Positions 25,353 through 29,746 of a stretch of DNA of 64,000 nt are shown here, one piece after another. Below the pieces are notes generated by a model, which ran no database searches, was not told the DNA's origin, and saw nothing but the letters and a program-made list of their open reading frames with translations. The translations under genes were made by a program, and so were the position numbers. Within the stretch, counting starts at the first letter, position 1. The number at the start of each line of letters is the position of its first letter. Origin of the DNA: Gemmatimonadaceae bacterium (GTDB lineage: Bacteria > Gemmatimonadota > Gemmatimonadetes > Gemmatimonadales > Gemmatimonadaceae); contig JADZCT010000045.1 of NCBI GenBank assembly GCA_020851455.1, positions 62,001 through 126,000 on the forward strand, written 5' to 3'.

Positions 25353-25805
25353 TCAGCGGGCTTCGAGCCTGTACGCCGCGTGGCATGCCACGCAATTGCC
25401 GGTGATTCGGGACAGCCGGACGACGACGCTGTCGCGCGGCAGGCCGGCACCGAGGGCCGCCGCCAGGTCGTCGAACTGCTGGTGCGTGGCCACGCCAAGC
25501 TGCAGGAACTTCTCCGGGAGCAGGTGTTCGAGCGCCGTGTCGGCCGCGGCGCCCAGGCCGGAACGCTTCGCGGCGGCCTGCATCGCTACCGCATCCCCGG
25601 GCACGCTGGCCGTCAGCAGATCGTGAAGCGACCCAAGCATCGTCCTCATTTCCAGGAGGACAGCGTCCCTTGCCTCGGCCGGGACGCGGATCGCCTCGCG
25701 ACCATCAGCGCCTGCTCCTCCTCCGCGCTGAGCGCGCTCTCCACAGCCGACGACAAACCCGCCAAGCAGGATCGCCGCCGCGAGCGAAAGCCGGGTTGCC
25801 CACAT
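25353..25805 (-). CDS. Cytochrome c'-like lipoprotein
   Basis: 150 residues. A lipoprotein signal ends at Cys21 (GGFVVGC). The body is helical, and a single haem-binding motif C138-V-A-C141-H142 lies 8 residues from the C-terminus, in TGNCVACHAAYRLEAR. That position is characteristic of the cytochrome c' four-helix bundle, which binds NO or CO or carries electrons. Family assignment rests on this C-terminal signature and length. AGGAGG before ATG 25805 supports the start. Confidence 0.72.
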   Translation of the reverse strand: MWATRLSLAAAILLGGFVVGCGERAQRGGGAGADGREAIRVPAEARDAVLLEMRTMLGSLHDLLTASVPGDAVAMQAAAKRSGLGAAADTALEHLLPEKFLQLGVATHQQFDDLAAALGAGLPRDSVVVRLSRITGNCVACHAAYRLEAR

Positions 25806-26011
25806 ACCGCCTCCTTGTGGAAACTTCAGGGCCAATCGGGCCGTAGTGCGCAGCCGATGGCGGCGCTGGAGGCAATTTGGCATGACGGCACGGCTCCTGC
25901 ACTCGAAGCACCCCGCAGTTACCATGACCGCAGGCCCGCGCGCGGTACGGCGGGCCGGCTGCAACAGCGCGCCGGGCCACGCCGCGACGCACTGTCACAC
26001 AGGAGACCATC

Positions 26012-27960: not shown

Positions 27961-28584
27961 TCAGCCGATCTCGAAGCAGCACCGCGGCCGGCCGCTCCGG
28001 TCGCAGCACTCGCGCACCTCGACGCCCACGAGCCGCCGGACCATGGCCTCGGCGATGCGGCACGCCGAAGGGTGATCAACGACCACCTTCGACAGCGGGC
28101 ATCCCGCACTCCGGATGAACAGCTTCCCGCCGTCTCCCTGCACCACTTCGGCGTCGCCGCCAAGCCCGCCAAGCGCAGCGACGGCCGCCTCGGCACGCGC
28201 CCGCAGACTTCCGCCTGCCCGGCCGCCGGCCGCATGATGCCCGGCATCGCGTAGCAGCGCTTCGGCCTCATCCGGGCCCAGGCGCGTCACCATCGTCCGG
28301 AGCAGCGCGTGCAACACCGGCGCGTACGCCTCCGAGAAGGTTTCCTCGCCCGCGGGCGTCAAAGCGTAAACGTGCGCCGGCTTGCCTACACCGCTGCGGC
28401 GCAAGTCCACGCGCTCCACCAGCCCCGCCTTCTCGAGCGCCTCGATGTGCGGCCTCACCGCGTTGTCCGTCACCCGCAGCTCCGCCGCCAGGCCGTTGAT
28501 CGTCCAGTTGGAACGGCGAAGTCGCGCGAGGATGCGCTCGCGCGTGTTCCCCGTCCGCTTCCCTGGCCTGACCGCTGGCTTCAT
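27961..28584 (-). CDS. SufR-like winged-helix regulator with six cysteines
   Basis: 207 residues. Residues 14-60 form an ArsR/DeoR-type winged helix (ERILARLRRSNWTINGLAAEL, then RVTDNAVRPHIEALEKAGLV). The C-terminal half has C162, C175, C193, C194, C202 and C203 spaced as C-x12-C-x17-CC-x7-CC, similar in style to the Fe-S-binding cysteines of SufR. It probably senses Fe-S status, redox or a metal, which is inference. ATG 28584 is chosen because GGGAG lies 6 nt upstream and because earlier in-frame starts (28626, 28683) fall at or before its own promoter. Divergent from the cupredoxin gene. Confidence 0.8.
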   Translation of the reverse strand: MKPAVRPGKRTGNTRERILARLRRSNWTINGLAAELRVTDNAVRPHIEALEKAGLVERVDLRRSGVGKPAHVYALTPAGEETFSEAYAPVLHALLRTMVTRLGPDEAEALLRDAGHHAAGGRAGGSLRARAEAAVAALGGLGGDAEVVQGDGGKLFIRSAGCPLSKVVVDHPSACRIAEAMVRRLVGVEVRECCDRSGRPRCCFEIG

Positions 28585-28633
28585 GGTTGGCTCCCGCATG
28601 GCATGGAATCTGCCGCCACGCGCCATCCCCGGA

Positions 28634-28662
28634 TGAGTAGGCCGTTGTTCATAATATGTCAA
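28634..28662 (-). promoter_or_regulatory. Promoter of the SufR-like regulator gene
   Basis: TTGACA at 28662-28657, 17-nt spacer, then TACTCA at 28639-28634 on the minus strand. The -35 lies in the left arm of the palindrome. The expected transcript would begin upstream of ATG 28584. Confidence 0.5.
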
Positions 28663-28680
28663 GGTCTTTCTTGACATATT
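28653..28680. promoter_or_regulatory. Perfect 11+6+11 palindrome holding both divergent -35 boxes
   Basis: AATATGTCAAG, spacer GTCTTT, CTTGACATATT. Each arm contains TTGACA reading outward, so one dimeric repressor bound here would block both the regulator gene and the cupredoxin gene. It is very AT-rich against its surroundings. The natural ligand is the neighbouring SufR-like protein (inference). Confidence 0.75.
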
Positions 28681-28699
28681 CACGGAGAGTCGCTAGAGT
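28671..28699 (+). promoter_or_regulatory. Sigma-70-type promoter of the cupredoxin gene
   Basis: TTGACA at 28671-28676, 17-nt spacer, TAGAGT at 28694-28699. The -35 is in the right arm of the palindrome, so repression by steric hindrance is expected. Confidence 0.6.
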
Positions 28700-28769
28700 C
28701 AGTGCATGAGGCCGCGGCTCATGAGAGGCACGAAGGACTTCCGCGGCGGAGGCAGGCGTGGGAGGCGGC

Positions 28770-29114
28770 ATGAAGCGAAATGACCGACGACTCGTGGTCG
28801 CACGGACGCTGTCGTTGCTGGCGGGCGCAGCATTGCTCGCTGGTTGCGGGTCGGCGCCCAGGCCAAGGACGGTATCGCTGACGATCGAGAACCTGGCGTT
28901 CACGCCAGCGACGGCAACGGTTGCGCCGGGGGATACGCTCGTCTGGACGAACCGAGACCTGGTGCCTCACACCGTGACGGCGCGGGACGGGGCGTTCGAC
29001 TCCGGCAGTATCGCGGCGGGCGCGACATGGACGTACGTCGCGCCACGGACGGGAACCGTCGCTTACTACTGCGTCTTCCACCCGACCATGCAGGGGACGC
29101 TCGACATTCACTGA
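28770..29114 (+). CDS. Cupredoxin-type copper lipoprotein
   Basis: 114 residues. Lipobox LLAGC with the lipidated Cys at 26. A plastocyanin/azurin-like domain follows, with a complete type 1 copper site: H67 (VPHTVTA), C101, H104 and M107 in YYCVFHPTM. It is probably an electron carrier anchored to a membrane on the periplasmic side. ATG 28770 is chosen because GGAGG lies just upstream; GTG 28758 is in frame. First gene of a transcript that likely continues into the DUF4142 gene 41 nt downstream, under the divergent SufR-like regulator. Confidence 0.88.
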   Translation: MKRNDRRLVVARTLSLLAGAALLAGCGSAPRPRTVSLTIENLAFTPATATVAPGDTLVWTNRDLVPHTVTARDGAFDSGSIAAGATWTYVAPRTGTVAYYCVFHPTMQGTLDIH

Positions 29115-29155
29115 GCGCCAGCAGGCAGACGAAGCACTCACACACAGAGGCATGT

Positions 29156-29746
29156 ATGACAGTGAAGCAAGTCGCAATCCCGGTGCTCGCACTAATCGCG
29201 GCGGTTGCATGCAGCGGCAAGGCGGACAGCACGCCGGCCGCAGCCAGCCAGGTCGCCACCACTTCGGCAGCGGCCGCTCCGGCGCCGCCCCCGACCGACG
29301 CGCAGATCGCGGCAATCGTGGTGACGGCCAACTCGGCCGACAGCGCAGCAGGGGCGCTGGCGATCCAGAAGTCGTCGAACGCGAAGATCAAGGCGTTCGC
29401 ACGCAGCATGGTCACCGACCACGGCGCGGTGAACAAGCAGGCCGTGGAACTCGCGAAGAAGATCGGTCTTACGCCGGAGTCGAACCCTACGAGCCAGTCG
29501 CTCGCGCAGGACGGCGAGTCGAACCTCAGCAACCTCCGCGGGCTAACTGGCGCGGCGTTCGACAAGGCCTACATTGACCACGAGGTCGCCCTCCACCAGC
29601 AGGTGCTCGACGCGCTGAGCAGCACGCTGCTGCCCAACACGCAGAACCCGGAGCTGAAGGCGCTCCTCGAGAAGGGCCAGCCGGTGTTCCAGGGCCACCT
29701 GGAAATGGCAAAGCAGGCGCAGGCATCGCTCTCGGTACAGCCGTAA
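29156..29746 (+). CDS. DUF4142 domain exported protein
   Basis: 196 residues. The N-terminal signal ends in a possible lipobox (AAVACSG), followed by an Ala/Pro-rich linker to about residue 45. The DUF4142 ferritin-like helical domain then follows (AIQKSSNAKIKAFARSMVTDHGAVNKQ, quoted as KIKAFARSMVTDHGAVN; later AYIDHEVALHQQVLDAL). The Asp-His pairs in MVTDH and IDHEVALHQ are conserved in the domain and could bind metal. Molecular function is not established. AGAGG precedes ATG 29156. Ends before a strong hairpin. Confidence 0.82.
   Translation: MTVKQVAIPVLALIAAVACSGKADSTPAAASQVATTSAAAAPAPPPTDAQIAAIVVTANSADSAAGALAIQKSSNAKIKAFARSMVTDHGAVNKQAVELAKKIGLTPESNPTSQSLAQDGESNLSNLRGLTGAAFDKAYIDHEVALHQQVLDALSSTLLPNTQNPELKALLEKGQPVFQGHLEMAKQAQASLSVQP

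Follow-up and report, generated by a model that had tools for sequence, protein, structure and literature searches.

A SufR-related regulator family with four invariant cysteines and its apparent module with DUF4142 envelope proteins

SufR proteins from cyanobacteria, Mycobacterium and Streptomyces combine a winged helix with a C-terminal cysteine site. The cyanobacterial SufR operator is CAAC-N6-GTTG (PMC8593673), and SufR from M. tuberculosis has three functional cysteines with the spacing C203-X12-C216-X27-C244 (PMC6034842). ArnR from Corynebacterium, which governs respiratory and NO genes, binds a [4Fe-4S] cluster through three cysteines (C179, C193 and C223, with no fourth), and zinc is present in ArnR preparations (PMC12343034).

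A regulator of this general build is encoded in the window, the 64,000-nucleotide stretch of DNA from a Gemmatimonadaceae bacterium (2.96-Mb draft genome) that was analysed here. It is divergent from the genes for a cupredoxin lipoprotein and a DUF4142 protein (Table 1). The winged helix scores above the cut-off of the Pfam profiles PF12840 and PF01022. The AlphaFold model has a mean pLDDT of 90.6; winged-helix matches dominate the fold search, and the C-terminal part matched only BcsD (Z about 11). The best start is the ATG at 28584, which has GGGAG ahead of it, while the GTG at 28683 given in the list of open reading frames would let the start codon fall at the palindrome between the genes.

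Table 1. Positions of the genes and putative regulatory elements in the window.
Feature	Position	Strand	Remarks
Regulator, 207 aa	27961..28584	-	N-terminal winged helix (ArsR/MarR type) and C-terminal sensor domain with C162-X12-C175-X18-C194-X7-C202
Putative regulator promoter, TTGACA-17-TACTCA	28634..28662	-	read from sequence; -35 inside left palindrome arm, -10 weak
Operator palindrome, AATATGTCAAG-GTCTTT-CTTGACATATT	28653..28680	.	unique in genome; conserved upstream of most family members
Predicted promoter of the cupredoxin-DUF4142 operon, TTGACA-17-TAGAGT	28671..28699	+	-35 inside right palindrome arm
Cupredoxin lipoprotein, 114 aa	28770..29114	+	complete type 1 copper site; PF13473 and PF00127 above cut-off
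DUF4142 lipoprotein, 196 aa	29156..29746	+	PF13628, 132 bits; ferritin-like helical bundle (model)

A first-pass annotation had described a SufR-like repressor with six C-terminal cysteines. All six are present, but the conserved site consists of only four. All 99 family members have C162, C175, C194 and C202, and 89 of them keep the X12-X18-X7 spacing, whereas C193 (37 of 99) and C203 (34 of 99) are variable. The C-X12-C pair and a last cysteine about 27 residues further on are common to SufR and the family, and C162-X12-C175...C202 matches the three functional cysteines of the mycobacterial protein (PMC6034842). Unlike suf-linked SufR of the same phylum, which has three of these cysteines and a His at the fourth place, the family has the extra invariant C194; in the suf-linked paralogues that were aligned, C194 corresponds to this His region. 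ArnR, compared here by its published features, shares the winged helix and a C-terminal cysteine sensor, but its cysteine spacing and targets differ (PMC12343034).

The kinship with SufR thus held up, but the regulator is not SufR itself. Its score with TIGR02702 (SufR_cyano) is 48.4 bits against a curated cut-off of 178.8 bits, and an unrooted tree places the SufR paralogues together (support 97/96), separate from all 99 sequences of the family. No suf genes were found beside the regulator in the window or in the orthologue gene lists inspected; they adjoin the paralogues. An assignment as SufR proper was rejected on the score, the position outside the suf-linked group and the absence of an operator near suf. 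The suf operon of the window genome (L187, G000:C105:170000-178959) has neither an adjacent SufR-like gene nor a family operator. Besides the regulator, the genome encodes a single SufR-like protein (L048, G000:C93, about 129442-129972), which adjoins a Rieske/FAD reductase rather than suf and has a very long branch in the tree.

The family comprises 99 distinct members in Gemmatimonadota, Verrucomicrobiota, Acidobacteriota, Armatimonadota and Chloroflexota, from 100 loci that include near-duplicates from close organisms; 94 loci could be judged for their neighbours. Apart from the regulator of the window itself, 14 strong orthologues were recovered from 41 genomes, 10 of them with DUF4142 as the immediate divergent neighbour. 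When 298 genomes of the phylum were searched with a profile, family matches above 136 bits came from 65 genomes (counted from the listing), and a second group scored below 120 bits. Among the members of this group with inspected neighbourhoods, most adjoin sufB and are SufR proper. Members from Verrucomicrobiota, Acidobacteriota, Armatimonadota and Ktedonobacter were added by a scan of named genomes, which used one pattern (LA..L..TDN) and is biased accordingly in the members it recovered; the relatives with names in the public collection are mostly Gemmatimonadota. Cultured carriers are Ktedonobacter racemifer and Gemmatirosa kalamazoonensis. The latter has three family copies in one genome (L100, L121, L133), one of them on the 1.04-Mb plasmid NZ_CP007130.1.

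The divergent neighbour is a DUF4142 gene in 65 of the 94 judgeable loci. The remaining partners are RoxA-like c-type cytochromes (9), PTPS proteins (5, in Verrucomicrobiota), DUF2231 (3), Rieske/FAD reductases (2) and others (10); a ferritin-like protein, a PRC barrel and an FAD oxidase are among the further partners of the family. In a set of 26 relatives, an orthologue and a strong DUF4142 match (E<1e-25) occur in the same eight genomes and in no others, which gives p = 6.4e-7 under an independence of genomes that does not hold here. One genome (G011, L188:1640-1849) has a C-terminal regulator fragment with all four cysteines and no adjoining DUF4142; this apparently decaying copy fits a joint loss. 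The first-pass annotation had proposed a three-gene module. A divergent redox or metal envelope module is indeed found, but its core is the regulator with DUF4142, and the cupredoxin is accessory. The association of the regulator with cupredoxin genes is kept in 17 of the 65 DUF4142 loci, where the cupredoxin lies in the same divergent operon with a complete His-Cys-His-Met set, ahead of DUF4142 in the window and after it in the other 16. In many loci the DUF4142 operon is additionally extended by cytochromes and Rieske/FAD reductases; in some, an AIF-type reductase gene comes after that of the regulator.

The palindrome between the divergent genes spans 28 bp, and its 11-bp arms match without a mismatch and contain TTGACA each. 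With up to three mismatches allowed, no palindrome of this kind arose in 100 shuffles and no second site was found in the 2.96-Mb genome. The family operator has the consensus AATAWGTCAAG-N6-CTTGACWTATT, and the column profile across the family upstream regions reads AATAWGTCAAG-N6-YTTGACTTATT. When the 22 defined operator positions are scored over about 290 bp around the start of each regulator gene, at least 16 agree in 70 of 98 family upstream regions (at least 18 in 52 of 98), a count in which the window and the few loci from which the consensus was first read are not independent, while the loci from other phyla played no part in defining it. No control stretch from other parts of the family loci (346 stretches) and no upstream region of a SufR paralogue (21 regions) reaches a score of 16. 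These counts argue for a specific site at the position where the first-pass annotation had placed one. About a quarter of the family is without a recognisable operator. Loci of other phyla that lack DUF4142 (L148, L149, L154, L160, L173) keep the operator, which is therefore tied to the regulator. DUF4142 genes distant from the regulator were rejected as targets because no family operator was found at them (L189-L193). A genome-wide regulon was likewise rejected, with 10 one-mismatch matches to the inner core against 14 in the reversed control.

Among the suf-linked SufR paralogues of the phylum, sites of the CAAC-N6-GTTG type occur in 7 (strict) to 10 of 21 loci. Both operators are autoregulatory palindromes with CAA-N8-TTG; hence, the geometry is retained and the flank altered, with AAC/GTT in SufR and AAG/CTT within long A/T flanks in the family (core TCAAG-N6-CTTGA). 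Taken with the Cys4 site, the separate clade lacking suf linkage and the envelope redox or metal targets, this operator makes the regulators apparently an undescribed sister family of SufR, and the locus a real, conserved regulatory module. No named system uniting regulator, operator and envelope genes was found in the literature, and none had been recognised from the sequence before.

That one palindrome would cover the -35 boxes of both promoters was also proposed earlier. A TTGACA hexamer does lie in each arm, but the two promoters differ in quality. The predicted plus-strand promoter of the cupredoxin-DUF4142 operon is convincing, with 10 of 12 consensus positions (shuffles give 0.1). On the minus strand a perfect TTGACA is followed by a poor -10 (TACTCA or ACTCAT), so that the putative promoter of the regulator itself is weak by consensus.

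Both envelope proteins were correctly recognised in the first-pass annotation. The cupredoxin has the lipobox LAGC, and its copper ligands are invariant in 18 homologues. Its relatives in the PDB include plastocyanin and amicyanin, with which it shares the complete type 1 ligands; unlike these, it is a small lipoprotein tied to DUF4142 and the regulator. The DUF4142 protein (lipobox AVAC) matches PF13628 with E=2e-38, and its 132 bits exceed the gathering cut-off of 27 bits. H89, D136, E143, H147 and H181 are invariant among 65 homologues, and D62 and D88 nearly so. In the model H89, E143, H147, H181, D62 and D88 are spread over several helices, a placement that would be expected of a metal site. 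The best structural matches of the model are copper-bound CopM (Z 17.3, 2.2 Å over 137 residues) and other DUF305 proteins, with near ties to E. coli YciF (Z 17.1) and bacterioferritins (15.5); since helical bundles of the ferritin-like class score high in general, the likeness to CopM is one of predicted fold only. The sequence match to CopM is weak (phmmer E 0.011), the score with DUF305 (PF03713) stays below its gathering cut-off (24.5 vs 27 bits), and HEV..H, in which E143 and H147 never vary, stands in place of the M..HH pattern of CopM/DUF305. A gene nearby (25353-25886, minus strand) may encode a further haem protein of the envelope; its product is small and secreted, carries CxxCH in its C-terminal part and matches cytochrome c' below the threshold.

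Comparative sequence evidence establishes the gene pairing, the operator, the Cys4 invariance and the overlap with the plus-side promoter; from it we infer repression rather than activation, the cofactor, the signal and the functions of the targets. We consider it probable, with considerable reservation, that the regulator works like SufR and ArnR, as an autoregulated repressor acting on both divergent promoters, and that loss of a Cys4-bound cofactor frees envelope redox or metal genes. A dimer would bind AATAWGTCAAG-N6-CTTGACWTATT and mask both -35 boxes, thereby silencing its own gene and the cupredoxin-DUF4142 operon. Binding should block RNA polymerase because the plus-strand promoter overlaps the right arm, and autoregulation would follow from the one site shared by both promoters. 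The cofactor in the Cys4 site would be a metal one, and by analogy with SufR and ArnR a [4Fe-4S] cluster is the likeliest. Oxidation, nitrosylation or displacement of this cluster, for instance by copper, would release the repressor and allow synthesis of envelope proteins that bind copper or iron and carry electrons; in relatives the same switch would drive DUF4142 together with c-type cytochromes and Rieske/FAD reductases. That copper damages Fe-S clusters is established (the study by Macomber and Imlay is cited in PMC8593673), which makes copper a plausible inducer. The cytochrome and Rieske partners are just as compatible with induction by oxidative stress or NO.

The nature of the cofactor leaves most room for other readings, since zinc binding or a thiol switch would also be conceivable for four cysteines. 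That the Cys4 site is a Cu(I) or Zn site, sensory or structural, with copper or zinc as the direct signal, is rather unlikely but the strongest competitor: four invariant cysteines differ from the three-cysteine sites of SufR and ArnR, zinc was seen in ArnR preparations (PMC12343034), and a cupredoxin and a CopM-like fold are among the targets. The alignment of three of the four cysteines with known Fe-S ligands of SufR speaks against it, as do the cytochromes and Rieske reductases that appear under the same control where no copper protein adjoins. A metal-free disulfide or polysulfide switch between cysteine pairs has a precedent in ArsR-type repressors reported to sense sulfane sulfur via cysteines (PMC12423496); given the strictly fixed spacing and the homology to Fe-S regulators, it is improbable here.

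An Fe-S-dependent repressor remains our preferred reading, and its direction of action and its targets can be questioned in turn. The position of the operator was judged by consensus promoters alone, and the -10 on the minus strand is poor, which would leave room for an activator or a dual regulator of the divergent operon. This is only slightly less improbable than the thiol switch, as the site overlaps the plus-strand -35 hexamer itself and both SufR (PMC8593673) and ArnR (PMC12343034) are repressors. Least credible of all is that the regulator is the organism's own SufR and governs the suf genes. Its weak TIGR02702 match and a suf operon without an adjacent SufR would suit such a role, but score, tree position and the lack of an operator near suf in the window genome oppose it, and related genomes such as G002, G016 and G022 have a SufR-group protein besides the family member.

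In a wider and more tentative interpretation, which we hold to be possible rather than probable, the repressors form a widespread family of all-cysteine-ligated Fe-S regulators that read the loss of their cluster as a sign of copper or redox poisoning and, in five phyla or more, switch on dedicated envelope modules of DUF4142, cupredoxin, cytochrome or Rieske proteins for metal buffering and electron transfer. If so, DUF4142 would for the first time have a role, that of a metal protein in the envelope, and with it a testable function. A sister family of SufR, with a candidate fourth cysteine ligand and a diverged operator, would now act on envelope redox genes in several soil phyla, and both families would form a natural pair in which to follow the co-evolution of cluster ligation and operator choice. 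The fit of the PTPS, PRC barrel and FAD oxidase partners to a copper or envelope theme is not obvious. In Verrucomicrobiota including Udaeobacter (L160, L162, L164, L167, L171) the divergent partner of the regulator contains PTPS (6-pyruvoyl tetrahydropterin synthase) domains, and the one such partner that was scanned contains three PTPS stretches.
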